This document shows, piece after piece, positions 1-32,796 of a stretch of 33,575 nucleotides of DNA; positions within the stretch are counted from its first letter, which is position 1; every line of letters begins with the position of its first letter. The notes under the pieces are model-generated. The model had not been told where the DNA came from. It searched no databases and saw only the letters and a list, made by a program, of their open reading frames with translations. This stretch comes from a virus: IMG/VR virus record IMGVR_UViG_3300031974_000311, positions 1 to 33,575 of that record; one strand, written 5' to 3'. A program made the translations under genes and the position numbers.

Positions 1-3000
1 ATGGGACACTACTACCGAAAGGGCTATACCCATAACCATGACCATGATAATAGTTACCATAGATTGCAAAAGAACCTTTGTAGGTCGTGGTAGTAATCGC
101 GGAGGCTTGATAAGATATAGTAAACGTATAGCTAGACGAGTTACCCGCTTGGTCTGTCGCTGTTACTGTAAAAGGTGAAGCAGACCCAGCACTATTGATG
201 GCGTATAGATTAGTTACTACACCAGTAGAGCTGTTTATTCCATAGATAGGAGCAGAGCTGTTTATACTATATGTAAAAGGTGTACTCATAGCACCGTCAG
301 GGTCAGACACTAAAGAACTAACATCAATCAATGTCGAACCAGCAGCTAATGGAGAGTTTTGTGTAATATGTGAATTACTAACAGTCCAAACTGGAGCTTC
401 ATCGTCTGTGTTAATTAGTGAAAAGACGTAAGACAATGATGCAGTCTGTTGAACACCTTCTTTTAAAAAGTGACACCCAACAGTTACGTTTATGTTTCCT
501 GAGTATGTCTCATAGTCTAAAGGTACTGTTGCTTTTAATTGACCGTTGCTTTGGTTAATTGTGAAAAACCCAGCGATATTTTGACTAACTATATGGTAGT
601 CTACGAATTGGCTTTGAGGTAGATCATCGCCAGCCGTGTACCCATCTATTGATTGAGTGCATTTAGCCTGAACAGTATCTAATGCTATGTTAGCAACGTC
701 CACTTCGTTAATGTTCTCTACAATTATACCTAGCGGTGATAAAGTATAGTTACTAGATTCTAAATTTACCGCGCCTTCATATTGCTCTGTAATAGGGAAA
801 CCTACATTAATGCTAGAAGTGTTTCCTGCGGTGTCGGTTGCTGTTATTTTAACAGTATAAGTGTCACCTACAATATTGTGATCGATAGGAGCTAACGAAG
901 TTACCGCACCCGAACTTGAGTTGATCTGTAGATAACTCGAAGCTGAGTTGTCCGTTTCGTTTAGCTGCCATGTTACAGTCTCATCAGCAACAGCAGTATA
1001 GTGAACATCACCACCAGTATAGGTAATGTGTTCCTCTAAGGTTGCACCTGTTGTGCCAGACGTAATCACAGGCGGTATTTCATCTACATCTAATACGTTT
1101 ATGTTAACAGTGTAATCACCAAAGTTCCCTAGAGAGTCAGTGGCTCTAACTACAAAATTATACGCTTGCGTAGTCTCATAATCTATAGCACCTGTAAGAC
1201 TGACTTCACCGTTAGCGGTGTCAAAAGCAAAAACGCTTGGCACATTACCTACTACCGATAAAGTAATCGGAGTGCTTGGGTCTGTTGCTACTATTTCACC
1301 TAACACAGTTGGCGAAGTGTTCTCATATACACCAATAGTTACACTACTAGACCCTAAAGTGCTTGTCGAAGAAGCCAGAGTCTTAGTATAAGTAATTGTA
1401 GGTGCAGTAGAATCTACTACAGGTATTGTTACAGTTTTATAAGTTCTAAAACCGTTAGTGTGTGTTGCCCTTACTATGAAAGAATAGCTTTGGTTAGTGC
1501 CATAATCAGGTGAGGAGTTAATCGTTACCACACCTGTACTCACATTCATTGTAAATGAGGCTGCATCTAACAAACCAGTCTCTAAGTGCCATACAGTTCC
1601 AGATTGATTACTTGTGGCTGTATAAACAGTCTGCCCAGCTGCACTCCCATCAATCAAAGCTGTAGCCGTGTTGCTAGAAGTTATCTGAGCGTGTTCACCA
1701 ACAATTAATACGTTTTCAAACGGCTCACCGTTGATTTGACCTATATATTCACAAACATGAGTTGGACTGTTATAACCAACATAAGGCGTAGTGAATGTAT
1801 ATGTACCATCCTCATTATCTGTTAAAGTTACATTTAAAATGTCATCAGACACCAACGTAGAGCCACTAAACTCTCTTTTTCTAATTGATATTAAATCTTT
1901 AATTCCTGTAATTGCAGCAATGTTGTATTCTGCGTTATCATACATTGTTAAAGTCATATCTAAATCAGCACCGTTAATGGAATGTGTTAATTTAGAATAT
2001 TTTAAGTAACAATCAGAAGTTAAAGTAAGCTTCTTAGTGTTATCGTTAGTGGATGCTAAATGGTTCTCTATAGTCATAGAGCCAGTTCCAGAACTAGGTG
2101 CTTTAACTACTTTATCAGAACCAGCAACCTCATCAGTTTGGAATGCTTGTCCATTTACATGACCATAAACATCCCAAGGGCTTGTTTTTGTAATTGACCA
2201 AGAGGTATTAACAGAAGTCCAAGGGTCTGTTCCTCCGTCATAATACCTTTCGTTTTCGGCTTCTTTTATGACAAGCTGTTGTAATTCAACAGGAGTCAAG
2301 TTAGGGTTTTGCTGTAAGTAAAGACAAGCAATACCAGACACCTGTGGGCAAGCCATTGATGTACCACTCTGTGAAGTTTTCTTATATCCAGCAGCTTTAG
2401 GGTTATTTACCAAATCCTTTTCATAGGCTGTGTGGTAAGAAAAGTTAGTTTGGAAATCATCTTCATCTTTTGCTCTACCTGATGCTGCCACTACGTTTTG
2501 ACCGCAAGCCCATATATTCACTGCTGCGCCACAGTTTGAAAAACGAGATTTGTGTAACTTAGTATATTGACCGAAGTAATGCTTTGTGCCAACTGATCCC
2601 ACGTTCAATGCTTGATGATGGTAAGGTGCTGGGGGTCTATGATACCAATATTCTCTTTTCAGGTTTGTAATCTGATTTCCGTTTTCATCGTTGCCGTTAG
2701 GGTTATCTAAGTTATCGGTTGTTTCAGTGCGACACCACAATTTGTTGCCGCCATTGTCAGTTTCAGTGGGAGATACAAAAATAGTTTCTTTGTTATTCCA
2801 GTCTCTTCCAGCACTATGCTGGCTTCCCATCAAATCATACTTCTCATCGTAAACGTGGTCGGGTGATTCTACATCGTGCCATTGACTTTCGTTACCAGCA
2901 GCAGTCACACAGTGAATACCCGCGCTTATACACTGACCAAGAAGGGTGTTTATTTCTTCACCGTTTACGTTACCCTGAGCGTCTACAATAAAGTTGGACA

Positions 3001-4225
3001 TAGTTCGGTTTAGATCAACACTGCTTGAGTGTAGTACCCCACCAACATTGCTACTTCCTACTACAAGGCTGGCGTTATAATGTACACCATAATTCCACAT
3101 TTGTTGCCTTACTTTTTCGTTTGTAGCACTTACTTCATCTTTAAAAGTAGAATCATTTATATCATCGCCTGATACCAACTGTTGCCCTGTTGTGTTATGT
3201 ATAAGAGGCTGACCGATAGCTAAATCAGTAAAATTATTAAAGACACCTGTCCAAGCTTGTCCCCTGTACTCGCCAGCAGTGTTACCATACCGCTCAAAAT
3301 ATCTTAAACCAATACTTAAGTTTAAAACTGTAGGTCTACCGCTTGTTTTCTGGTTGTGCCAAGCTAATACTAAATCAAAAGCATCCGCAACCCTTTCCGC
3401 TTCGGTTTTACCCTCTCCATCAGCTATTTGGCTGTAAGAGCATACATATATATTAGCCTTTTTAGCCCATCCGTGTTTTTTACCACAGGCGATAGAAGCC
3501 ACATGAGTTCCGTGTCCAGTAGGGTCTACCTTATAATGATCTTCGTGTTGGTTTCCTACAATACCTGTTTCTTCATACCAATTAATTCTTTGAACTCTGC
3601 TATTTCCTAGCTCATCATCAAAATCTGGGTGATCTGCTAAGATGCCAGAGTCAATAGAAACCCAATCAACACCTTCACCGTCATACTTATAATAATGTGT
3701 ATTCTTTCCATAGATGTTACCATCTGTAAAAGCTGTGGTGTTATACACAGTGCCATCGTCAAAAGTAATTGTAGGGTGTTTTAACTTAATGTTGTTTTGG
3801 TTTTGGGGGTCTAAATTTTCAAACTTATCGTGACCAGAGTGAATATATAAACCATGATTTCGTAAATCACCGTGAGCGTGTATAGGGTCTTGGTTTGGAA
3901 ATCCTATCTCTAACTGGGGAACAGTATTAGTGTGGCTATCTACTGCCCAAAAATGCCCTTTGTCAAACTTATCGTCAACATTATCGACTACTTCGCCCGA
4001 CACTTTAGGTATAACTTTTTCTACTCGTTCATCTTCGTAAAGTGCAGCGGCTTCCTCTTCCGTAAGCCAGTAGTCCGTCATTTTGTTGTTTTTAGGTCTG
4101 GCGTTAAGGGTCTTAACTTTTCTTGTAGGTACGGTGGAAGAGCCACCACGACTAGACAACTCCTTGTCTAAGTCAGCGATGTCTATACCATCCTTTACTA
4201 CTACAACGTATTTACGTTCACTCAT
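1..4225 (-). CDS. Subtilisin-like (S8) protease with cadherin-like repeats, partial
   Basis: The frame is open from an ATG at 4225 to the left edge (1408 codons, no stop), so the C-terminus is missing. GAGG lies 5 bases before the ATG. Residues 1-75 look like an I9 propeptide (KYVVVVKDG near the start, LTEEEAAALYEDERVEKVIP near the end). The peptidase S8 motifs are all present: Asp192 in VSIDSG, His238 in GHGTHVA, oxyanion Asn445 in TAAGNE and Ser623 in SGTSMACP. Spacing between them is much longer than in subtilisin, so the domain has large insertions. After about residue 840 come about five cadherin-like repeats with patterns such as DYETTQAYNFVVRATD. It begins 11 bases after the tail-fibre gene, on the same strand, so it is probably a virion or tail-associated protein. 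Protease family is confident; role is inferred (depolymerase, receptor processing or adhesin maturation). No signal peptide is evident. Confidence 0.85.
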   Translation of the reverse strand, partial: MSERKYVVVVKDGIDIADLDKELSSRGGSSTVPTRKVKTLNARPKNNKMTDYWLTEEEAAALYEDERVEKVIPKVSGEVVDNVDDKFDKGHFWAVDSHTNTVPQLEIGFPNQDPIHAHGDLRNHGLYIHSGHDKFENLDPQNQNNIKLKHPTITFDDGTVYNTTAFTDGNIYGKNTHYYKYDGEGVDWVSIDSGILADHPDFDDELGNSRVQRINWYEETGIVGNQHEDHYKVDPTGHGTHVASIACGKKHGWAKKANIYVCSYSQIADGEGKTEAERVADAFDLVLAWHNQKTSGRPTVLNLSIGLRYFERYGNTAGEYRGQAWTGVFNNFTDLAIGQPLIHNTTGQQLVSGDDINDSTFKDEVSATNEKVRQQMWNYGVHYNASLVVGSSNVGGVLHSSSVDLNRTMSNFIVDAQGNVNGEEINTLLGQCISAGIHCVTAAGNESQWHDVESPDHVYDEKYDLMGSQHSAGRDWNNKETIFVSPTETDNGGNKLWCRTETTDNLDNPNGNDENGNQITNLKREYWYHRPPAPYHHQALNVGSVGTKHYFGQYTKLHKSRFSNCGAAVNIWACGQNVVAASGRAKDEDDFQTNFSYHTAYEKDLVNNPKAAGYKKTSQSGTSMACPQVSGIACLYLQQNPNLTPVELQQLVIKEAENERYYDGGTDPWTSVNTSWSITKTSPWDVYGHVNGQAFQTDEVAGSDKVVKAPSSGTGSMTIENHLASTNDNTKKLTLTSDCYLKYSKLTHSINGADLDMTLTMYDNAEYNIAAITGIKDLISIRKREFSGSTLVSDDILNVTLTDNEDGTYTFTTPYVGYNSPTHVCEYIGQINGEPFENVLIVGEHAQITSSNTATALIDGSAAGQTVYTATSNQSGTVWHLETGLLDAASFTMNVSTGVVTINSSPDYGTNQSYSFIVRATHTNGFRTYKTVTIPVVDSTAPTITYTKTLASSTSTLGSSSVTIGVYENTSPTVLGEIVATDPSTPITLSVVGNVPSVFAFDTANGEVSLTGAIDYETTQAYNFVVRATDSLGNFGDYTVNINVLDVDEIPPVITSGTTGATLEEHITYTGGDVHYTAVADETVTWQLNETDNSASSYLQINSSSGAVTSLAPIDHNIVGDTYTVKITATDTAGNTSSINVGFPITEQYEGAVNLESSNYTLSPLGIIVENINEVDVANIALDTVQAKCTQSIDGYTAGDDLPQSQFVDYHIVSQNIAGFFTINQSNGQLKATVPLDYETYSGNINVTVGCHFLKEGVQQTASLSYVFSLINTDDEAPVWTVSNSHITQNSPLAAGSTLIDVSSLVSDPDGAMSTPFTYSINSSAPIYGINSSTGVVTNLYAINSAGSASPFTVTATDQAGNSSSYTFTISYQASAITTTTYKGSFAIYGNYYHGHGYGYSPFGSSVP

Positions 4226-4236
4226 AAAAACCTCAA

Positions 4237-5979
4237 TTAAAATTCATACACGAATACAAAAAGCTCGCCTGATTGTACTGCTGCTCCGTTGGTATCAGTT
4301 ACAGTAACCTCGAAATACTCAGTGCTTCTATTAACTTTAATGTTAACATTTGTATTTTCTTGGTAGTAAGCTTGCACCTGATAATCGTTTGTATTTGCAT
4401 AGTAATATGGTGAAGCTGGGTGATTACCTAAACTAACTCTAAACGTACCATTTACTGGCTCGCTATATGCGAAGTTACCGCCTTGTGGGGGAACTGCAAC
4501 GCTGTCGCGGGATTGAGAAAGGTTAGCTAAGTCTAAAACAAAAGCAAACTTAGGTGTAGGTACACCGTTTATAATAACACCGCTAGGTGCTGTGATGTCT
4601 AAATTAGTGCTGCTTATTAACTGAGTATCATCACTACCGTAGGTAGATATAACATTATTAGATACTACAGCCCAGCCGTTTAGTACATCTTGAGTTGCGT
4701 TAGCTGCTGCCTCAGCTGCTTGCTTTGACGAAAGCGCAGAGTTTTTATGCTGCTCCGCTAGAGTTGCGTTATTCAATACGTTAGAGCTAACAGAGTTTAC
4801 AGCCGACACGCTTGTCGATTGTTGAGTCTGTATCGCACTGATAGCAGTCGATTCAGCAGTGTCTATAGTACCTTCAGCATCTGTAACGAGATTAGGTATT
4901 GTAGTGTTTACTGCTGTGTTAACGGTACTAGCCGCTAAGTCACTGTAGTGCTTGGCTGAAAGTTGCGCTGTGTATTGTGTACCATCTATTGTCACATTAA
5001 AAGTACCAGTATGATTAGCGTACTTCTGAGCTGCTAAAGCGTTGCTCTGTGAATCAGAAAGCGCACCTGACAAACCGCCCATGTCCGTAAGCGTTTGATT
5101 TATTTGATTGTTAGCGTTAATAGAATCTTGTGCTAACCCATCACTAGTAATCATTCTGGGTAAATATGTATTATTATAAGCGTCTACATGAGCCTGTACT
5201 GTGGCTGCGTCAGTTACAAACGATCCCTCTAGTGTCTCAATCGTTAATACATCAGTTGCCTGTAAAGGCATAATATGAATAAAGTCTGAGATACTATTGT
5301 AATAATAATCAGCAGAAGCAGGAATATCAGCCTGTTGTGCTGCCTTTACCAACTTCACACCGTTTAGATACACATTAGAATGTGTCTCATCATACTTACC
5401 GTACAAAAATATTTTAGCAAAGGTATTTGATGAGGGGTTGTTAGCTACATCATTATAACCGTTAGTCGAAGTTGTGATTAGGTGTGTAGCTTTTGTAGGA
5501 ACTGCCGCAACCCAACTTGTTCCGTTATATACTTGTAGGACGTTAGGTGTTGAGCTAGTGTTGTACCATAACGTGCCGTTAGTTGGATCAGTGGGAGCTT
5601 CCCCTTGAGAATAATAAAACTTACCTGACGCTGTGTTAGTAAAGTTAGCTTTATCGTAAGCCTCTTGAGCCATATAAAATATTTGGTTAGAGTCTTTATC
5701 CAAAGTGTCAGCTTTCAAGATTGAGCCGTCACTAAAGTCTACAAGCCTCTCATTATTTTGCGTGTTACGCTCAATAGTAATTACAGCGTTCTCAGCGGGT
5801 AGATAATTGTTATTAAAGTTTATTGTGGTGGTGTTATAAGTATAATCAGTACCGTCTATTTTTAAATCACCGTTCACAAATACTTTAATATCCGCTTGCT
5901 CAAAATGGTTAGGCAGCGCGAAGTTAGTGAGAGCGGTATCACCCGCTCCCCAAGTAAATGTCTTAATTGAATTTGCCAT
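4237..5979 (-). CDS. Tail fibre protein, T7 gp17-like N-terminus
   Basis: This 580-residue protein starts with the T7 gp17 N-terminal domain, the part that attaches the fibre to the tail. It has the family patterns of an early TFTWGAG segment, LVDFSDGSILKADTLDKDSN and then QIFYMAQEAYDKA, within about residues 1-115. A short YYSQGEAPTDPTNGTLWYNT segment follows, common in phage fibres. Residues about 360-440 are Ala/Ser/Thr-rich and likely form a helical, coiled-coil shaft. The C-terminal part is beta-rich and probably holds receptor-binding structure, but I recognise no family there. CAGGAT lies upstream of the ATG. It sits between the gp16-like gene and the subtilase gene, as gene 17 follows gene 16 in T7. 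The N-terminal assignment is confident; host receptor is unknown. Confidence 0.9.
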   Translation of the reverse strand: MANSIKTFTWGAGDTALTNFALPNHFEQADIKVFVNGDLKIDGTDYTYNTTTINFNNNYLPAENAVITIERNTQNNERLVDFSDGSILKADTLDKDSNQIFYMAQEAYDKANFTNTASGKFYYSQGEAPTDPTNGTLWYNTSSTPNVLQVYNGTSWVAAVPTKATHLITTSTNGYNDVANNPSSNTFAKIFLYGKYDETHSNVYLNGVKLVKAAQQADIPASADYYYNSISDFIHIMPLQATDVLTIETLEGSFVTDAATVQAHVDAYNNTYLPRMITSDGLAQDSINANNQINQTLTDMGGLSGALSDSQSNALAAQKYANHTGTFNVTIDGTQYTAQLSAKHYSDLAASTVNTAVNTTIPNLVTDAEGTIDTAESTAISAIQTQQSTSVSAVNSVSSNVLNNATLAEQHKNSALSSKQAAEAAANATQDVLNGWAVVSNNVISTYGSDDTQLISSTNLDITAPSGVIINGVPTPKFAFVLDLANLSQSRDSVAVPPQGGNFAYSEPVNGTFRVSLGNHPASPYYYANTNDYQVQAYYQENTNVNIKVNRSTEYFEVTVTDTNGAAVQSGELFVFVYEF

Positions 5980-5991
5980 TTATTTATCCTG

Positions 5992-8900
5992 TTATTCAAA
6001 AAGTGAAATGTTTTCACGATTAGTAGAATGTCCATGCTGGAGCATTCGTTCAAATTGTTCCCTCTGCTTTACCTGATCTCTAAGACCAGTAATCCTAATA
6101 GCTCTATCCAGACCCATGTTTCTAGCTTCTGTTAGTAACGCCCTTGTGCGTTTAACTCGCTCACCTATAGTGTGTTTATTAAGAGGTGAGCCTAACTCTA
6201 GTTTTGTGTCTGTTGCTAGTTCGTGTAGCTTGGGAATTAACCAAGGGATTTTATACATCTCTTGCATCATTACATTGAACAACACTGTTGGCTGTCCGTT
6301 GTACTCTACTTCGATGCTTCTTAAATCTTTATTAGGGAATCTATCGTCCCTTGTTTTCTGTCTCGTGAAATTACCAAAGTCTAAATTCTCCAACTTAGCT
6401 AAGTAGTCCAGAACCTCCATGTGTTCTTTGCTTCTACCGTTAGCCAAATCTTCTGGGTATGCTGCACCAAAACCTGTAATTTGTGTATAGGTTATTTCGC
6501 GTTCCATAGGGAAACCTAAAGCATCAAAACGTAGTGGTAGTCGTGTATCGTAAGGACTAACAGACGCTAATAGTTTATGCTTGATTGTATTAGGCTGCAC
6601 TATAGGAGCATCCCCTCGTATAGCTTCATTCATTTTCTTAAAGGAACTTGGAACCATTTGTAAGCCTTTTTCTAAGACAAAGTTACCAAGAAGGTTCATA
6701 CCTTTCTCTTTATCTTCCCCTTCTGGGCTTTCCATTAATCCCGATACTTTTACCGCAGTGCCTACTGTATCTGTAATACCTTGAGTTAGTGCTGAGTCAC
6801 GGAAGGCTGAGATAGCCGTTGCAAAAGCAACACCCAAAGAAGCCATAACTGAATCAGGTATACCACCTTTTAATCTTTCAGGATCGACACCATCCATGTT
6901 ACGCTGTTGTTGGTAATCCATGTAGCCGTCCAAAGCGTTTACAATGATAGTTGTAGGAATACGCAAAGGTTCAAAACGAGCAAAGTTTACTTCCTCTCCG
7001 TTCTCGAAGAAGAAAGGTTCTTTGATTGTCAAAGGTCTCATCGTTGACTTATTCTTTTCACCTGTCTTGGTGTAGTCAACATTAGCACTACCTGAGATTT
7101 CACCCATAGCATATTTAGTGACAACGTATAAAGTCCAAGCATAAGCAATAGACGCTTCTGTCTTAGCTCTTGTTTGCGCTCTAACACCGTTAGCACCTGA
7201 GAGGTCATTACGGAATTGAGGTAACAGTTGGTTAACCGCAGGGGTTAGTCGCATAGACTCATGGAACAACCACGCTGGTGTTCTAAAGAATAAGTTACCC
7301 ATGAAACGTGACCATGCACGATGTCTGGTAACATCCTCGTAACCAGCAGCTAGTCGCTCTGCAAAGCCGCCTTGTTTGTTAAAGTCTCTCTTATAAAGCA
7401 GAGTTCTAACATCGTTCAGTGCTTCTTGCCCTGTTCGCTCTATTTCATCAGCTTCTTTAGCTAAAACATTTGCTAAGTTGTGTGACTCTTCTGTACCTTC
7501 TTTGAGAAGTCTACTCACTTCCTTACGCATACTCTCTACAGTGACATCATCACCCAGAGTTTTAAATGCGCCTTTACCATACTTAGCTACTTCTGCCTCA
7601 ACAAAATCTTCTAACTCTTTACCAGCTAAACCTTTTCGCGTACCTAGCTCGTAGATAGGTTTCATTTTAGACATAGAAAGGTGGAAGTCATAGCCTTTGT
7701 TTATTTCTGCTTCAATGTTATCATCAATAAACTTTCTCAGCTTGTTGCCGCTAAGTCCTTGCTCCAAACCTTCTTCTACTAATTTATCAAAACCTATAGC
7801 AGTTAAAGAAGATACCGCTGCCATCTCTTGTTGGAAAGCATCTGATGCGCTAACCAAACGTGGGAATATACGAAGAAAACTAGCAGCTTCCGAAGAACCT
7901 AGGATGTCATTAATCTTAACACCACCCTCTAGGATACGAGACAAGTCAGCCGTTAGTATTGTCTGCTCATATCGCGTAGAAGCTCTAGCTGAAATCCAAG
8001 CTGCTTCCATAGCTCCCTTCATCTGGGAGTAAACCATCAAGTTCTTTTTCCATGCCATTTTGTTCAGTGGATCACTTACCAAAGTGTCAAGCATAGGGAA
8101 GAAGGCAACCTTCATCGCAGGGTATACAGTGTTATAGATTAAAGTAGGAATACTAAACACACCTGAGATAGCTGCCTCTAACAATTTTTCATCTAAACGG
8201 CTTTCGGGTTTAACCGTAACAGTGTCCTCGATGTTCAAATCTTCCATTTCTTTCATAAGCTCTCGTACACTGCTCTTAGGGTTATTAAGGGCTTCTACTT
8301 TGGCTTCTCTTAACTCTCTTGCAACTTTTTCGTTACCATCCTTGAGAGCCTTGTCGATTTTTACATCAAACTCATCAAGCATCTTTTGAAGCCTTCTGTT
8401 GTAGACTTCGCGTGTCACTTTCTTCTCTACCTTCACCATATCAAACTTTTCACCACGCTCTTTGGCTGCGGTAGCTTTAATATCGAGGAAGAATTTAATA
8501 GCTTCTAGATCACGACCTGAGTAAGCATTGACGTAGGCTTTTACAACATCTAACTGTTCGCCTACTCGTATAGCTTTTATCAAGTCACCCTTAAGCAAAC
8601 TAGCCTCTGCTGCTGTTAATGTTTCATCTAACAGTTTACCATTAATACGATCTACGTCATATCTAGACAACTGTGCGGCAGCGTTGATCTGTTTTTTAGT
8701 TTCCGAATACCAATCACCCATTTTGGTTAGGTCGTTGCTGTCTGGTACTGCGTGGTCAAACTCTTCTATAATACGTTTTGCAGCACCTTCGGGGTTTGCC
8801 TGTACATCCTCAAAGATGTTGTAAGCGTGTTTAAAGAAAGGTTTAGCTAATTGAGCTACTGGTATAGTTTGTACTGGTACATCGTCAGCTTTAGGTTTAG

Positions 8901-10464
8901 GGGCATCAAGTTTTTCTAACTTAACATTCTTTTCAGGATTCCAATATATTTCTACATTGTGTTCCTTGTTCCCTGTTTTTCTGCCACCAATATGACGATA
9001 ACCTTCAAAACCTTCTTTTGCTAATATCTCTTGTAGATATAAAAATCTATTTTGTACTTCATCTCTAGATAAGCCATCATGCTTAGAAGTTGCTCTAAAC
9101 TCATCAAAAGCTTTTGCAATAGTCCAATCAGGTTCTTGTACAAACTCACCGTCAAAGTTTTCATAAATGCCTAAATGACGTTCATCGAACTCATCACCAA
9201 AAGCATCTTCCATTTTCTTCTGTAGGTCAGGCGTTATAGGCTGTTCTAAGTCAAACAACTTAGGCTCACCTGTTACTACTACTTTGTATTTTGTGGGGCT
9301 TGTTCCTTGCCCTTTATTAGTATAACCCTGAGCAATATCTAAAGCATCTGTAGTGTAGAAACCTTGACCGTAGATATTTCGATTATCATAATACTTATCA
9401 CCATCTCCAATTACTACTTCATTAGATGATCCGTGATATTGCTGTCCCTGACCTCGCGTATCTTCAATCGCATCAGCTCTTTCTTGCACATCTTTTATTA
9501 AGCTTTGAAGCTGTGACGCTGGTGCTTCATTATCTACAGCTTTAGCTACAGGTGTGCCAGCTACTTCTCTAGCTTCTGCCAATCTTTTCTCAGCAATAAT
9601 GCCCGCTGCAATTTCAGACTTTTTCGCATCTTCTTCTAGTTTCTTAACTTTAGGGTCGTAATACTTTTTGGCTATTTTACCTAGTCCATAATCTAAACCA
9701 GACCCTAATACGCCACCAGCAACACCGCCAATACCACCCATCATTAATGTTTGAGTTGTGTTGTATTCGTCTTGCTGCCCTGCATCGATACGGACGTTCT
9801 GCATCATTGCATCAGATGCCATAGCGTGTCCAGCACCGCCCACCGCTGCCGTTGCTCCTGCTCTTTTGACAGAGGTGTCAATACCAATCTTAGCAGCAGC
9901 CTCTACAGACTTCTTAGTTGCATTCTTTAAGGAAGCCTTAACAGCTTCTTTAGCTGCATTTCCCGCAGCCAATCTAGCACCTTGAGCTGCTACTGTACCA
10001 GCACCCAACGTCACAAGACCCGCCCAGTTAGAGATGTCTGTAAACATTTCCCAACCAGCTTGTCCTGCTGTATGCCAACTAGTGTTAACGGCATCGTACT
10101 GATCCATCATATAGACAAAAGCTTCTTTAGTTGTCTGGTCTGCTTTTAAAACTCTAGAAGTGTCGATTGTCATATCGCCTAGGTTATAATTAAAACCAGC
10201 CATCTGCTTTAGACCGTAATCCGCTAACTTCTCTCGGTAACTAGAGCCTGAGTATTTCTCAAGCTCTGTATCACCCTTTAAAGGTGTATAACCATACGTC
10301 ATGTTAAAGAAGTGTTGAGAGGCTTTTATCCAATCGTCATTCTTGTGTAACTCATCCCAATCAACATCTTGTTGAATGGTACTAAAAGGCGTGTAGCCTC
10401 TCTCATTCGTTGTAGATGTAGAAAGGCTGTTTTGTTCTAACCAAGAACTTAAATCGTTTGCCAT
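5992..10464 (-). CDS. Internal virion protein D (gp16-like) with ADP-ribosyltransferase-like domain
   Basis: At 1490 residues this is the largest complete protein here and lies where T7 gene 16 lies, between gp15-like and tail-fibre genes. T7 gp16 is ejected into the cell and helps form the DNA channel. The N-terminal 150 residues have an aromatic-rich pattern (FFNMTYGYTP, FNYNLGDM) recalling marine podophage gp16 homologues. A Gly-rich hydrophobic stretch near 240-260 (MMGGIGGVAGGVLGSGLDYG) could insert in membranes. Residues about 340-515 resemble ART domains of phage polyvalent proteins: YHGSS with His344, GQGFYTTDALDIAQGY with Tyr370 and NVEIYWNP with Glu505, an H-Y-E arrangement. A long charged helical region follows. 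I see no SLT transglycosylase motif, which T7 gp16 has at its N-terminus. Virion role is confident; the ART call is moderate and rests on motifs. Confidence 0.85.
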   Translation of the reverse strand: MANDLSSWLEQNSLSTSTTNERGYTPFSTIQQDVDWDELHKNDDWIKASQHFFNMTYGYTPLKGDTELEKYSGSSYREKLADYGLKQMAGFNYNLGDMTIDTSRVLKADQTTKEAFVYMMDQYDAVNTSWHTAGQAGWEMFTDISNWAGLVTLGAGTVAAQGARLAAGNAAKEAVKASLKNATKKSVEAAAKIGIDTSVKRAGATAAVGGAGHAMASDAMMQNVRIDAGQQDEYNTTQTLMMGGIGGVAGGVLGSGLDYGLGKIAKKYYDPKVKKLEEDAKKSEIAAGIIAEKRLAEAREVAGTPVAKAVDNEAPASQLQSLIKDVQERADAIEDTRGQGQQYHGSSNEVVIGDGDKYYDNRNIYGQGFYTTDALDIAQGYTNKGQGTSPTKYKVVVTGEPKLFDLEQPITPDLQKKMEDAFGDEFDERHLGIYENFDGEFVQEPDWTIAKAFDEFRATSKHDGLSRDEVQNRFLYLQEILAKEGFEGYRHIGGRKTGNKEHNVEIYWNPEKNVKLEKLDAPKPKADDVPVQTIPVAQLAKPFFKHAYNIFEDVQANPEGAAKRIIEEFDHAVPDSNDLTKMGDWYSETKKQINAAAQLSRYDVDRINGKLLDETLTAAEASLLKGDLIKAIRVGEQLDVVKAYVNAYSGRDLEAIKFFLDIKATAAKERGEKFDMVKVEKKVTREVYNRRLQKMLDEFDVKIDKALKDGNEKVARELREAKVEALNNPKSSVRELMKEMEDLNIEDTVTVKPESRLDEKLLEAAISGVFSIPTLIYNTVYPAMKVAFFPMLDTLVSDPLNKMAWKKNLMVYSQMKGAMEAAWISARASTRYEQTILTADLSRILEGGVKINDILGSSEAASFLRIFPRLVSASDAFQQEMAAVSSLTAIGFDKLVEEGLEQGLSGNKLRKFIDDNIEAEINKGYDFHLSMSKMKPIYELGTRKGLAGKELEDFVEAEVAKYGKGAFKTLGDDVTVESMRKEVSRLLKEGTEESHNLANVLAKEADEIERTGQEALNDVRTLLYKRDFNKQGGFAERLAAGYEDVTRHRAWSRFMGNLFFRTPAWLFHESMRLTPAVNQLLPQFRNDLSGANGVRAQTRAKTEASIAYAWTLYVVTKYAMGEISGSANVDYTKTGEKNKSTMRPLTIKEPFFFENGEEVNFARFEPLRIPTTIIVNALDGYMDYQQQRNMDGVDPERLKGGIPDSVMASLGVAFATAISAFRDSALTQGITDTVGTAVKVSGLMESPEGEDKEKGMNLLGNFVLEKGLQMVPSSFKKMNEAIRGDAPIVQPNTIKHKLLASVSPYDTRLPLRFDALGFPMEREITYTQITGFGAAYPEDLANGRSKEHMEVLDYLAKLENLDFGNFTRQKTRDDRFPNKDLRSIEVEYNGQPTVLFNVMMQEMYKIPWLIPKLHELATDTKLELGSPLNKHTIGERVKRTRALLTEARNMGLDRAIRITGLRDQVKQREQFERMLQHGHSTNRENISLFE

Positions 10465-13901: not shown

Positions 13902-16775
13902 TTATAGTCTCTTATTTCGTAGTACGACAAACCCTTCCCATTCTGCGCTTTGGAAAACGCTAGGTAGATGCGTGTCATTGGTTATTGTAATTTCTGTTGT
14001 ACTTGCTTGTGATTGTATACCTACTTCAAACGAGCCTGAGTCAACCACTGCTGGCTGGCTTAGTAGGTTTTGCGCTTGACCTAAGATACGACCTGTAAAC
14101 GTGGACAGTACCGCATCACGACCTACTGATTTAACTGTAACATCAAAGCGTCCTGTGTCGCTATAGTTGAAGGACATTTTGCGTAACTGAAACCTACCCA
14201 TTTGCGTAGAGTCACCCTGTACAGGCTTGAACACTTGTTCAGACATTACATACTTAAATGTGTAAGGGTAACCAATGGTAACTGAACCACCGTTATTTAA
14301 GTGTTCAAGTATAGGGTTATCTATCCCTACATATACATCATCGAACAGTCCTAACTCTACACCCTCGTCTGTTATAGCCACCATGCCCGCAGTGTTGAAA
14401 TCATCAGGGACTTCTGAACTAGTGCTGTTGGCACTAAGCGTTACTTGGTGATCTATTAAAAGAGGTGATCCTTGGTCAGTTAAATCCATCTCTTCGTAGC
14501 TGCCGTCTACAAACGTGAAGTATAGTTTCGCATTGTTAAACGCTACGTCTACAATGTCTTTATCAAACTTCCATTTAGACCACGAGCTTTGTAAGCGTTC
14601 TTGAGATGAGTTGTACCATTTGTATACATAACATTCTGATTTATTAGCTTCCGTTAAACATACGAGCATACTCTCGTTAGAGGAAGCAATCATTTTATTA
14701 ATAGTACCGTCTAGATACTTAGGAACGTGAGCTGTAATCTCTGTAGCGTCTCTTATCTCAGTATCGTCTCTTGTAAAGTATTCACGAACACCTGAGAATG
14801 AACCGCTTTTAGTTGCAAAGAATACGCTAGTACCAGCACCAACTGGCGTGGATGTTAAATCACATTCGTATTTAGTTGATTGATCTATCGTTACTTCCGC
14901 TGGTGTTAATAACTGTGTAGCGGATAGGGTAAACTGGTTAAGGTTTGAAAATAGTAATAGGTTATCTTGAATAGGCACAGCAGCTTCTAGGTTCGCCACT
15001 TCGTTCTGACTGACTGATACATCAATAGGATCAGAGTCAAGTAAGGTGCGTACTGTTGTGCGCCAGAAGTTTAAGTAACCACCAGCTTCACTAAAGATAA
15101 CATTCTCTCCCGCTAGAACACCTAAGCGGTTTCTGTGGAAGAAGATGTCTGAAATCGTTTGACCAACAAAGCTAGGTGCGGGGTTGGTGTTATCATCACC
15201 AGCCTTTCGATGCGCCCAAGTGTTTTCAAAATTATCTTCAGCTTGTGAAAATACAAAAGCACCACCCTCTACTTGTCGTAAAGTGTGAGGCATGGTGGAT
15301 AGATCGAAATAATTATAAAGGTTTGGTGCTACAGTTTCTCTCCAGAAGCCTGAGCCAGCCGCACCCTCAAAGACAACATGGAAGTCATCTTCTTTCTTTT
15401 GGTTGTCCCCTACTACACCTAAGCGCATTCCTTCAAGGCACTGGTTAGGTAAATCTGTAAATGACTTAGCATTACCTTTAAATGCTTTAAGGTTTACACC
15501 ACCATCATCATCTGTGGCGATGATATTAAAATCACCAAAAGGTGAGCCTTCAGGACAAGTGATAACAAAGTAAGGTTCATCATTATAAGTAGTTGGTTCT
15601 ATAAACCCATTACCTCCGTTATTTATAATATCAACTGTAGTAGTAGGTCTTTCATAAAAGTATTTTTTATTCCTAATGCTTACACTTCTGCTTTTTCGAG
15701 GAAATAGGTATTCGGGCAGCCTGATTTTTGTATCATCGTCAGGGCTTACCATCCAGCCGTATTCACCAGTCTCATCATAAGGAACGTGAGAATCGCCAAC
15801 TTTAATTATTACTGCGGGTCTAGTTGCCTCATCTTCATCTACCCATGTACTGACGTTAAGGGCTTGTTGCTGAACGCCATCAATAGTAATACTTTGCGTG
15901 GGTTCTGCTAAGTCCCTAATAGAGTCTGGAAGAGGGTAAGTAGAGCTATTACTCTCGTATGATTTTTCATACAAATATGTTTCTCGGTGAAGGAGGTCAC
16001 CTAATTGAGATAGAACCTCAGTTCTTAGATTTGTTCTAGTAGAGCCAGAAACTGTCTCACCTATAACATGACTTACTTTAATACCGTCACTGTTAAATTC
16101 ATCTTCGTTGTTAGCGGTTGTAGTTATTTGGTTTGGTGTGCTTGCCTCAGCGGTAAAATCGTTAGCATCTGTACCTTCACCTTGCATGGTTAAAGTATAA
16201 TCTTTACCGTAGTTAACACTTTTTAAATATACTAAAGCTTGGCTACTAGTATTAGCTGGTATAATTGCATCCGACATCTCTACTGTTTTGTTCTTGTTAA
16301 CAATAAAGGTTGCGTCAGCTACAGAGGTTGCTGTTATATCTGCGTAGTGGTCGGGAAGGTATGATGTATCGTCTGAATTACCTTGTAAGTGTGTACCGTC
16401 TGCCAACCAACTAGCTGAACCCGACTCGTAACGTAAGTTACCATGTATATCGTATACTCGGATTACTTTATCAGGAGTAATGACAATTTGAAACTGTTTG
16501 CTATCGCTTACCTTATAGGTGTGGAAAAAAGCCTCGGATAGCTCCAGCTCAGTAAGCGGTTCGGAGTTATTACCTAAATTAAAAGTTGCTTGCCAACTAG
16601 CACTGGTTTTCATTAAACTTTTTAAAAACTTGGTAGGAGGACGTTTCTTAAGACCATCAACCACATCTGAGAAACCGTTTTCCTGTACTTCTCCCTGACT
16701 TTCTAAGCGTAAAGAAGGGGGCTGTTGCGATACCCCATTGATGAGGTTTGGTATGTTCTTAGAAACTAGACCCAT
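13902..16775 (-). CDS. Tail tubular protein B (gp12-like nozzle)
   Basis: A 957-residue protein, longer than T7 gp12 (794). The N-terminus MGLVSKNIPNLINGVSQQPP, followed closely by LRLESQGEVQENG, is the typical start of gp12-like nozzle proteins. Other family patterns are DIFFHRNRLGVLAGENVIFSE and DPIDVSVSQNEVANLEAAVP (about residues 535-600) and YKWYNSSQERLQSSWSKW (about 710). The protein forms the tail nozzle that binds the gp11 adaptor. It overlaps the gp11-like gene by 17 bases, as is usual for this pair. Call is confident. Confidence 0.93.
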   Translation of the reverse strand: MGLVSKNIPNLINGVSQQPPSLRLESQGEVQENGFSDVVDGLKKRPPTKFLKSLMKTSASWQATFNLGNNSEPLTELELSEAFFHTYKVSDSKQFQIVITPDKVIRVYDIHGNLRYESGSASWLADGTHLQGNSDDTSYLPDHYADITATSVADATFIVNKNKTVEMSDAIIPANTSSQALVYLKSVNYGKDYTLTMQGEGTDANDFTAEASTPNQITTTANNEDEFNSDGIKVSHVIGETVSGSTRTNLRTEVLSQLGDLLHRETYLYEKSYESNSSTYPLPDSIRDLAEPTQSITIDGVQQQALNVSTWVDEDEATRPAVIIKVGDSHVPYDETGEYGWMVSPDDDTKIRLPEYLFPRKSRSVSIRNKKYFYERPTTTVDIINNGGNGFIEPTTYNDEPYFVITCPEGSPFGDFNIIATDDDGGVNLKAFKGNAKSFTDLPNQCLEGMRLGVVGDNQKKEDDFHVVFEGAAGSGFWRETVAPNLYNYFDLSTMPHTLRQVEGGAFVFSQAEDNFENTWAHRKAGDDNTNPAPSFVGQTISDIFFHRNRLGVLAGENVIFSEAGGYLNFWRTTVRTLLDSDPIDVSVSQNEVANLEAAVPIQDNLLLFSNLNQFTLSATQLLTPAEVTIDQSTKYECDLTSTPVGAGTSVFFATKSGSFSGVREYFTRDDTEIRDATEITAHVPKYLDGTINKMIASSNESMLVCLTEANKSECYVYKWYNSSQERLQSSWSKWKFDKDIVDVAFNNAKLYFTFVDGSYEEMDLTDQGSPLLIDHQVTLSANSTSSEVPDDFNTAGMVAITDEGVELGLFDDVYVGIDNPILEHLNNGGSVTIGYPYTFKYVMSEQVFKPVQGDSTQMGRFQLRKMSFNYSDTGRFDVTVKSVGRDAVLSTFTGRILGQAQNLLSQPAVVDSGSFEVGIQSQASTTEITITNDTHLPSVFQSAEWEGFVVLRNKRL

Positions 16776-29172: not shown

Positions 29173-29335
29173 CTAATAATTCTCTCTCTTTTGCATAATA
29201 AAATTCCAAAATGCTGTAACAATCTGGACACGTTAAAAGGGTCATCATAGAGAACTCTTCAAACTCGTCCTCTACCGTCTCGTCACCTGTCCAAAACATT
29301 TCAGCTCCACATTTCATGCAATTATGTCCAGTCAT
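29153..29335 (-). CDS. Small zinc-ribbon protein
   Basis: The start is placed at the ATG at 29335, with GAGGAG ten bases upstream, giving 60 residues. Two Cys pairs, CMKCG near the start and CPDC about 30 residues later, are expected to bind one zinc ion; an acidic segment (DETVEDEFEEF) lies between them. It overlaps both the endonuclease I gene and the primase-helicase gene. No specific function is known; DNA or protein binding in replication is a guess from position. Confidence 0.65.
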   Translation of the reverse strand: MTGHNCMKCGAEMFWTGDETVEDEFEEFSMMTLLTCPDCYSILEFYYAKERELLDGESGE

Positions 29336-30361: not shown

Positions 30362-32020
30362 TTATGCAAAAAAGTAATCACTCTTTAACACCAAATCTAA
30401 ATCCAAAGTACCCTTGGTTGGTGGTAACGGCACATCCGTTCCCTCCTGTAACGATGTTACTGCGCTATCGTAGAGATTTTGTAGTATATCGTTTTGTTTG
30501 TACATATCGACAAACGCCTCTCTTAGTCTTTGGTTAAGCAGTGGCATATTTGTACAATGTGTACCGTAACTGTCATGCACCATCGCAAAATCAGTTACAC
30601 CATCTTTCAAACATCGGACAACTGTCTCTGTCAAAGCCGCAGCATCCAACGAATGAACTAAGTTTGGTGAACTACCCGAAACAGCTTTCCGAGAGTCCAC
30701 CGAATTGTCTATTGGCTCTTGGTAATTTAATCTTACAATAGAGCCGTTTAAATGAGTCTTAATCCTTAACTTCTTTTTATTGTTATATGATTGCCTTACT
30801 AACAAACCTGTGGGTGTTTTCCATTCAAACATCTTACCTTCGTTTGCGTATAGCCTAGCCAAATCTTTGACATAATCCATAACAGTATGGGCTGAGATAA
30901 TAACCTCATTGATTGCTTGCCATACGAAACCAGATAAATAAATTGATACTTTAAAGAAATCGTCATCCCAAGGGTTCTTACCTTTGCACTTCTCCTCAAG
31001 TGCTTCATTAATATATTCAGTGCAAGCGTGTCTTGTTCCTGAGTACGGTACTATCATCACTGGTCGCTTTGTAATCTTACGACATACGCCAATCTCTAAT
31101 AGCTGTTTTGCTAACTCAGTGTCCTGCTCCTCTAACAACTGTGTAGTACGTTTCGCTACGTCAGAATAAATATCCTGTGGTACGTCACTTGGTGTTAGGT
31201 TCACAGCCCTACCGCCACCCTCATCTAAAAGCATAGCTGAGAGGTGCTGTAAGCCGTTACAAGAGCCGTCACTAGCACAAGGTAGGTGAGTATAGTGTGG
31301 CTCACCAGACTGCTTAGAATGGTTATATAACGCCCACTCGTAGCACCAAGCTAATGCTTGCCAAGGCTTGTCCGCGTCCTGCCACCACTTGTTTGTTAAC
31401 GGATCATTATAAACGTCTACAGCGTTCTGTACGTTCATATACGCCCACATCTCTCGATCTTCCAAACTTACCTTGTCAACACCGAACACGTTAGCACCGT
31501 GAATAGCTAACCATCTCGCATCCTCATCATTGGATACCAAGACTCCATTAGCAAACTCTAACAATGCTTTGCTGTAGTCAGCGTTTTGTGGTGACAGGAA
31601 CGACTCAACTGGATACTTCCGCCCCCGAAAGTCTAGTTGCCATACATACCACATCTTATCATGCTTAACGTACTCCTCTGCAAGCTGAATAGTCCGCTCA
31701 ACCTGAATACGTTTCGACATTGATTTGTTATTATGCGTGTGTACTTTGTTCCTATCTGCTTTAAATATCTTAAACTGTTCCTTTTCTTCATCATTAAGAT
31801 ACTTAGGTTCTTTACTGAATGGGTATTTAGGTAATGGTAGATTGTCTTTCTGCGGAAGTCCTTCCCACAACTGACCACTGTCCCAACAAGCTCGCAGCGT
31901 TTCCACTACAAACTGGTTAATACGCCAAGGTGTTTGCTGTAGAGCATTGACGCAAGTGTATTCATCTTGAATATCACACTGCGCTAGTCTGTCTAAATAA
32001 TCCTGTACAACTTGTCTCAC
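30362..32020 (-). CDS. Single-subunit RNA polymerase, polymerase-core part (gp1-like, split)
   Basis: About 552 residues, equivalent to T7 RNA polymerase from roughly residue 300 to the end. Catalytic residues are present: Asp251 in SDGSCNG (T7 Asp537), Lys318 in ITKRPVM (Lys631), Tyr326 in VPYSG (Tyr639) and Asp483 in VHDSYGT (Asp812). The C-terminus ends SDYFFA, like the T7 DFAFA foot. The likely start is the GTG at 32020, which overlaps the stop of the N-terminal ORF as GTGA and has GAGGG seven bases upstream; a GTG at 32026 is also in frame. A stop codon lies 21 bases before 32026 in this frame. The frame is minus one relative to the upstream ORF. It should transcribe the phage's later genes with the N-terminal part; a one-base sequence error is the main alternative. 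Confidence 0.93.
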   Translation of the reverse strand: MRQVVQDYLDRLAQCDIQDEYTCVNALQQTPWRINQFVVETLRACWDSGQLWEGLPQKDNLPLPKYPFSKEPKYLNDEEKEQFKIFKADRNKVHTHNNKSMSKRIQVERTIQLAEEYVKHDKMWYVWQLDFRGRKYPVESFLSPQNADYSKALLEFANGVLVSNDEDARWLAIHGANVFGVDKVSLEDREMWAYMNVQNAVDVYNDPLTNKWWQDADKPWQALAWCYEWALYNHSKQSGEPHYTHLPCASDGSCNGLQHLSAMLLDEGGGRAVNLTPSDVPQDIYSDVAKRTTQLLEEQDTELAKQLLEIGVCRKITKRPVMIVPYSGTRHACTEYINEALEEKCKGKNPWDDDFFKVSIYLSGFVWQAINEVIISAHTVMDYVKDLARLYANEGKMFEWKTPTGLLVRQSYNNKKKLRIKTHLNGSIVRLNYQEPIDNSVDSRKAVSGSSPNLVHSLDAAALTETVVRCLKDGVTDFAMVHDSYGTHCTNMPLLNQRLREAFVDMYKQNDILQNLYDSAVTSLQEGTDVPLPPTKGTLDLDLVLKSDYFFA

Positions 32021-32796
32021 GACCACACCCTCACAAAAGGTAATTTATTAATATGTTCTGAATGATAACCACCACCCCAGAACCCATCCCAATCTTTTGG
32101 CTCAATAATACAAGGAGCATAGCGAGGTAATGCTATACTGTTTGTCTCGTTGAACGCCTTTACCCACTCCTCTGTCTCAGCAGTAGGAGCCAGTAAGTAA
32201 GTTGTTTTCTTTTTGGTAATCTTTTTCTCTAGCTTTACGATACCAGTGTGTTCAATAATTATATCCACTAGCCTGATGCCTACGTTAACTCGCTCCTTAT
32301 CAGTCCAGTGTGGTATGTCTAAACCGTCATTTCTAATCTTGTGGTCAAGACCGTATCGCTTGTGGTCAAAACCTTTATCAGATTTCTTGTTTGCTAACTT
32401 AATAATGTTTGTAGCTACTTGCTTGTCTAACTCTAGCCATTTATCAAGACGTATCTGAGTCTCGATTTGTATTCCTATTGTTCGTGCTACCTGATACAGC
32501 GTAGGCTTACGGCACATAACATCAACCATAGCTACAAGAGCTAGGTATGCCATCTTGCTAGAGTCTGTATGTTTAGTTAGACTTTTAAATACTGATTTAT
32601 TGTTTCCAAGTTTATTGTGATAAGCATCTATTGCGTCCATGACTGGTTCAACAATGCCTTTGATGATAGTACGTCCGTGTTTGGTTTTAGAACCCAGTCC
32701 TTTACCTAACAACTCTTCCATACCTTTGTTGTAACGGTGTATCCCTGACTGTACCATTCGGTACTCTAACTCTATTTGTTTATCCAAAGTTGCCAT
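32017..32796 (-). CDS. Single-subunit RNA polymerase, N-terminal domain part (gp1-like, split)
   Basis: A 259-residue protein matching the N-terminal, promoter-binding domain of T7-like RNA polymerases. Its C-terminal CIIEPKDWDGFWGGGYHSEH corresponds to T7 PPKDWTGITGGGYW, and LPFVRVWS to PLALVRTHS, after which TGA ends the frame. The rest of the enzyme continues in another frame from 32020. GAGG lies six bases before the ATG at 32796. This is the first gene after the attP-like region, so it is probably read by host RNA polymerase early in infection, although I found no convincing sigma-70 promoter. The two parts together total about 811 residues, close to family length (T7 883). Confidence 0.88.
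   Translation of the reverse strand: MATLDKQIELEYRMVQSGIHRYNKGMEELLGKGLGSKTKHGRTIIKGIVEPVMDAIDAYHNKLGNNKSVFKSLTKHTDSSKMAYLALVAMVDVMCRKPTLYQVARTIGIQIETQIRLDKWLELDKQVATNIIKLANKKSDKGFDHKRYGLDHKIRNDGLDIPHWTDKERVNVGIRLVDIIIEHTGIVKLEKKITKKKTTYLLAPTAETEEWVKAFNETNSIALPRYAPCIIEPKDWDGFWGGGYHSEHINKLPFVRVWS

Follow-up and report, generated by a model that had tools for sequence, protein, structure and literature searches.

What would a small marine T7-like phage do with a very large subtilisin-like protease encoded directly behind its tail fibre? The question is raised by the stretch of DNA analysed here, an entire IMG/VR record (IMGVR_UViG_3300031974_000311; 33,575 bases, hereafter the window) with genes on the minus strand in a T7-like order. 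An earlier note on this DNA had described a large S8 protease-cadherin frame following the tail fibre gene, and this arrangement was confirmed, on the same strand and with a gap of 11 bases. The reading favoured here, with a probability of roughly 0.6, is that the gene encodes a tail-associated protease-adhesin that serves as a second part of the apparatus for adsorption. Sequence comparison places the protein, as a divergent member, in a large family of subtilases found almost exclusively on viral contigs.

An exact-peptide search of IMG/VR with the whole window protein found nothing. A scan of the database by conserved motifs, made in its place, recovered 46 relatives, and an alignment-based scan at least 556. 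When the identical alignment was applied to 84,980 prokaryote genomes, a single full-length match was strong (E=2e-31); it lay in a metagenome-assembled genome, on a contig of 3.2 kb, and the remaining matches were weaker and mostly motif-sized. The protein is not the lone oddity it had first seemed, but belongs to a subtilase family common in the tail modules of marine phages. It shares with this family the prodomain and the catalytic core, at 25-36% identity over the core (alignments A1, A7, and A8). Members have one common type of prodomain, signal-less and I9-like, and a core of about 520 amino acids (aa), and 14 of 64 complete non-redundant members extend more than 150 residues beyond the catalytic Ser (maximum 1,667). 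Their C-terminal ends vary, and include Calx-beta, bacterial Ig, and glycine-rich types, a Laminin_G_3 lectin (S-SCSM1), He_PIG Ig domains (Atu_ph07), and the cadherin type of the window. A single representative subtilase retrieved 40 phage records, nearly all of cyanophages. The tree did not place the window subtilase, which sat on a very long branch, and it spoke neither for nor against a single origin with the subtilase of L296, a T7-like relative.

The family is also under-annotated, since two BFVD entries named as proximal tail fibre or Ig-domain protein, A0A1D8KFC6 (S-CAM1) and M4QD42 (MED4-213), have a subtilisin fold by Foldseek. One 1,128-aa phage protein (L025:967-4353) is ordered the other way round from most members, its subtilase core forming the C-terminal end behind about 700 aa. 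The 'sheath subtilisin' of PMC9004378 was considered as a member and rejected, as the name refers to a tail sheath gene.

The assignment of the N-terminal part to the S8 proteases, with Asp192, His238, Asn445, and Ser623 as key residues, was upheld by a Peptidase_S8 match (E=1.1e-22, residues 191-658, above the Pfam gathering cut-off) and by a diverse viral alignment of 71 rows. The S8 order of Asp, His, and Ser, together with the oxyanion Asn, is present in conserved motifs of the window protein; across the alignment His, Asn, and Ser were kept in 71/71 rows and Asp in 70/71, although only the conservation of Asp, His, and Asn counts as independent evidence, because the rows had been picked by their Ser motif. 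This residue conservation supports the prediction that the protein is proteolytic. The insertions between catalytic motifs are indeed long, with 385 residues from His to Ser where the family ranges from 233 to 353, with a median of 253, whereas the Asp-His spacing is ordinary (46 versus 45 in the family). An AlphaFold model of the protease part, based on an alignment of 66 sequences (the window protein and 65 viral relatives), was confident for the catalytic core and for the 75-residue prodomain (predicted local distance difference test, pLDDT, of ~90), and of low confidence for the linker (residues 76-176) and the insertions. Structure prediction had been named beforehand as a check, and it recovered a subtilisin fold: Foldseek matches of the model in the PDB were to subtilisins, the best being the cold-adapted subtilisin-like proteinase 1sh7 (E=1.9e-11, TM on target 0.75), and they included pro-forms such as pro-subtilisin E. 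The I9-like propeptide stood less firmly. A Pfam search of the prodomain gave no I9 match, and its profile found just three matches in the PDB, all of them subtilase propeptides or protease pro-chains at a non-significant E of ~1, so that it is termed I9-like by its modelled fold and its place, and not by a significant sequence score. No signal peptide was evident in the sequence of residues 1-75.

At least five cadherin-like repeats had been proposed for the C-terminal half, and five were delimited (residues 841-1373), which are mutually similar above shuffles in most pairs. The region matched the Cadherin family of Pfam well above the cut-off (E=3.6e-24; 85.4 bits versus 28.8), and its PDB matches were to protocadherin, CELSR, and CDH23. 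Of the calcium-site motifs, repeat 2 retains IDYE, RATDS, and LDVDEIPP, and repeats 3 and 5 retain only part. A single-sequence AlphaFold model of the cadherin half reached a pLDDT of 36, too low to judge whether a beta-sandwich fold is present. The suggested survey for the same cadherin fusion turned up nothing similar: no homologue of the C-terminal half was found among 3,312 open reading frames from the fetched loci, or in 50,697 phage records.

Association with the phage tail is supported by gene context and by one relative. Among 57 non-redundant family members, the upstream neighbour was the tail fibre family phrog_9729 in 18 and the baseplate wedge-tail fibre connector phrog_677 in 15, and the latter was also the downstream neighbour in 23 of 56; genes drawn at random from the same loci, at a distance of at least 5 kb, served as a control and showed no tail enrichment. 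In the cultured phages inspected, the subtilase adjoins tail pin, baseplate wedge, tail fibre, tail spike, or structural genes, and in Atu_ph07 a single gene separates it from the tail fibre gene. The relative is ORF228 of S-SCSM1, a subtilase with two Laminin_G_3 domains, which is annotated with a virion-protein note. Mass spectrometry of CsCl-purified S-SCSM1 virions identified 45 proteins (PMC9602691), and about 48 genes were counted with this flag in the record, among them NMNAT, ORF213, and ORF214, which the text of that study names as detected. Several predicted baseplate and head genes lack it. The flag largely tracks detection by mass spectrometry, if imperfectly.

Further evidence came from the tail fibre slot in close T7-like kin, records with a near core that were gathered through an internal virion protein. 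In seven of these the fibre is one protein of 971-1,561 aa and no adjoining subtilase was seen, and the four of them that were searched in full gave no subtilase match. The three S8 carriers have a short fibre followed by the subtilase, the fibre being 580 aa in the window, 523 in L296, and 551 in L310, the last of which is 77% identical to the window in its portal and 80% in its ribonucleotide reductase. A further record, L247, also has a short fibre, and its contig stops just past it. In the window, the first 112 residues of the fibre match Phage_T7_tail (E=4.8e-18, Pfam). The split between long fibre without and short fibre with subtilase is clean (Fisher p=0.008), but the lineages are not independent, and as L296 and L310 are of one subtilase lineage there are fewer independent events than records. 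In cultured kin the position behind the fibre is taken by other accessory genes, which differ from phage to phage and include one for a carbohydrate-binding-domain protein. Together with the split in fibre length, this points to the subtilase as the second of two components that make up the adsorption apparatus.

On this reading, the protein would be expressed late, together with the tail fibre, and, given that no signal peptide is evident, would be synthesized in the cytoplasm, where the I9-like prodomain would hold it latent. In the tail it would be mounted next to the short fibre of gp17 type, in place of the distal half that the long, undivided fibre of sister phages has. During adsorption, the cadherin-like repeats may serve as a calcium-stiffened stalk or as an adhesin, and the freed subtilase would cleave a host surface or periplasmic protein, making it a protein-directed analogue of a tailspike depolymerase. 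For the phage of the window, virion incorporation, activation, substrate, and what the repeats do are all presumed. Several observations weigh against the proposal. The indication of a virion location comes from S-SCSM1 and not from the window's phage, and the mismatch between the number of flagged genes and the published number makes the flag an imperfect proxy for detection. Contaminants are possible in CsCl preparations. No N-terminal tail-docking element was identified in the subtilase, where docking onto gp17 was not specifically tested. Finally, the subtilases of close T7-like kin (L296:6646-8475 and L310:6001-7836) have no cadherin repeats and, while keeping His, Asn, and Ser, have an altered Asp motif (GVDVVLHIGDR and GVDVVLHLADR, respectively); they are possibly pseudoenzymes, judging from these motifs, and the role conserved in these kin may be other than proteolysis.

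Of the three roles that the earlier note had put forward, a tail or virion protease-adhesin is favoured by the gene context of the family, the S-SCSM1 virion flag, and the fibre split, and the other two are less supported. A tail adhesin whose protease cuts only itself or the tail fibre, for prodomain release or assembly trimming, with a mature part that merely binds, would agree with the autoprocessing that subtilase prodomains of the I9 type undergo, with the position of subtilase genes next to fibre genes, and with the retention of the gene in kin with a degenerate Asp motif. It is nevertheless rather unlikely, since the full catalytic set is strictly kept across many kinds of phages and beside very diverse fibres, which suggests more than a self-cut. 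Release at lysis, whether to digest host or competitor proteins outside the cell or to aid lysis and the escape of progeny, is improbable. Subtilases are classically extracellular enzymes, and the gene order of the T7-like kin places the slot between gp17 and the lysis/terminase genes; however, myovirus members are also tied to tail fibre or baseplate genes, no lysis cluster was adjacent in those inspected, and the S-SCSM1 relative bears its virion flag.

There is even less reason to favour a protease that is ejected or works intracellularly, attacking proteins within the infected host. Virions are able to carry enzymes (PMC9602691), and the lack of a signal peptide would fit, but the long cadherin, Ig, and lectin C-termini of the family are extracellular-type modules that would be difficult to eject. 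The least probable explanation is an assembly artefact, in which a bacterial subtilase contig was fused to a phage contig. The gene does run off the contig end, and subtilases with repeats are frequent in marine bacteria. The earlier worry over a chimera was nonetheless dismissed: GC content is smooth (39-46%), the TAA stop of the tail fibre (4237-4239) leaves exactly 11 bases before the subtilase ATG, with a Shine-Dalgarno motif in the gap, the prodomain and core are those of the viral family, and the identical order of fibre then subtilase recurs in related records from other samples. Extension of the contig by exact 42-mer found no overlapping record, and the missing C-terminus was not recovered.

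S8 peptidases have been annotated in cyanophages since 2010, when they were merely listed for P-HM1 and P-HM2 (Sullivan 2010; PMC3037559), and one has been flagged as a virion protein, but they are functionally unstudied in the literature searched, in which no study on the function of phage tail-module subtilases was found. New are the fusion to cadherin repeats in a T7-like phage, its position next to a fibre that is shortened, and, across the family, a tail context combined with adhesive ends that can be exchanged. Phage tail enzymes are known mainly as glycan and peptidoglycan hydrolases and lyases, and subtilases on phage tails, as these data suggest, would add proteases to the sugar-cutting types. 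Neither 'protease' nor 'proteolytic' occurs in a review of the enzymes with which tailed phages breach cell barriers (PMC6116005). If the family acts on the virion, proteolysis would be a further common route for marine phages past the host surface. A wider proposal can be advanced only tentatively, at somewhat less than even odds: that marine tailed phages have widespread tail-mounted subtilases, mostly viral, guarded by prodomains, and fitted with exchangeable lectin, Ig, or cadherin ends, which open protein barriers at the host surface and, in T7-like phages, replace the distal half of the fibre. The cadherin form, carried by a small T7-like phage, shows that the C-terminal end can be exchanged. 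As cultured cyanophages (P-SSM2, S-SCSM1, and S-H38) carry the family, its role can be tested without isolating the phage of the window.

Features of the subtilase-cadherin locus, in window coordinates
Feature	Position	Strand	Details
Subtilase-cadherin gene	2..4225	minus	at least 1,408 aa; ATG start, no stop up to contig end; 3' end beyond contig
I9-like prodomain	4001..4225	minus	residues 1-75; common to viral family
Subtilase catalytic domain	2246..3688	minus	residues ~180-660; Pfam and model
Catalytic Asp192 codon	3650..3652	minus	alignment
Catalytic His238 codon	3512..3514	minus	alignment
Main insertion between His and Asn motifs	2963..3247	minus	residues ~327-421; partly low-confidence in model
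Oxyanion Asn445 codon	2891..2893	minus	alignment
Catalytic Ser623 codon	2357..2359	minus	alignment
Linker region before repeats	1706..2128	minus	residues ~700-840; no Pfam family match
Cadherin-like repeat 1	1397..1705	minus	residues 841-943
Cadherin-like repeat 2	1067..1396	minus	residues 944-1053; best Pfam Cadherin stretch
Cadherin-like repeat 3	767..1066	minus	residues 1054-1153
Cadherin-like repeat 4	386..766	minus	residues 1154-1280; most divergent
Cadherin-like repeat 5	107..385	minus	residues 1281-1373
Shine-Dalgarno-like GAGG	4231..4234	minus	within 11-base gap, five bases ahead of ATG; read from sequence
Tail fibre	4237..5979	minus	580 aa; T7 gp17-type N-terminal domain (1-112); short relative to S8-less kin

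The genes of the window begin with a partial integrase, RNA polymerase, single-stranded DNA-binding protein, endonuclease, primase-helicase, DNA polymerase, exonuclease, MazG, and ribonucleotide reductase, and continue with portal, scaffold, capsid, tail tubes A and B, internal virion proteins, and tail fibre, the subtilase being last. By primase comparison, the closest cultured phages were Roseobacter CRP phages and Pelagibacter phages (Autographiviridae), at ~53-56%. The T7-type RNA polymerase, a single gene in cultured kin, occupies two overlapping frames (30362-32026 and 32017-32796, minus strand), which may reflect a frameshift, an error, or a true split. The endonuclease-primase interval (29173-29321) has no lysozyme or amidase gene, unlike that of several kin (CRP-804, MedDCM-OCT-S30-C28, and KM23-C739), and no endolysin was recognised in the window. 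Tail tube B (13902-16775) is 957 aa long, compared with ~770-800 aa in cultured kin, and alignments to these are often interrupted between residues ~197-200 and 387-415, which suggests that a domain has been inserted. The gp16-like internal virion protein (5992-10464; 1,490 aa) had a weak DUF3990 match (E=0.003) and one phage relative by tblastn, LUZ100.

Among known systems, ORF228 of the cyanomyophage S-SCSM1 (QFG06492.1, labelled 'baseplate wedge subunit (virion protein)') resembles the window protein in its subtilase fold family, its length of ~1,400 aa, its long adhesion-type C-terminal domains, and its tail-module position, but belongs to a T4-like myophage, carries ConA/laminin-G lectins instead of cadherins, and is at a large tree distance. 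The 'extracellular serine proteinase' (1,251 aa) of Agrobacterium phage Atu_ph07 likewise has a subtilase followed by three He_PIG Ig-like domains, two genes before the tail fibre gene, although this phage is a jumbo myophage, the repeats are Ig and not cadherin, and the relation is only distant. The subtilases of the cyanomyophages S-H38, S-CREM1, S-WAM2, P-SSM2, and S-RSM4 share the prodomain and/or core and the tail fibre/baseplate surroundings, but are ~550-610 aa long and without a long adhesive C-terminus. Those of the T7-like IMG/VR relatives L296/G001 and L310/G017 occupy the same slot behind a short gp17-type fibre, with a near core, and differ in length (609-611 aa), in having no cadherin repeats, and in their Asp motif. 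The tailspike depolymerases and second receptor-binding proteins of Autographiviridae are likewise accessory enzymes beside gp17 that vary between sister phages, except that the depolymerases degrade polysaccharide.

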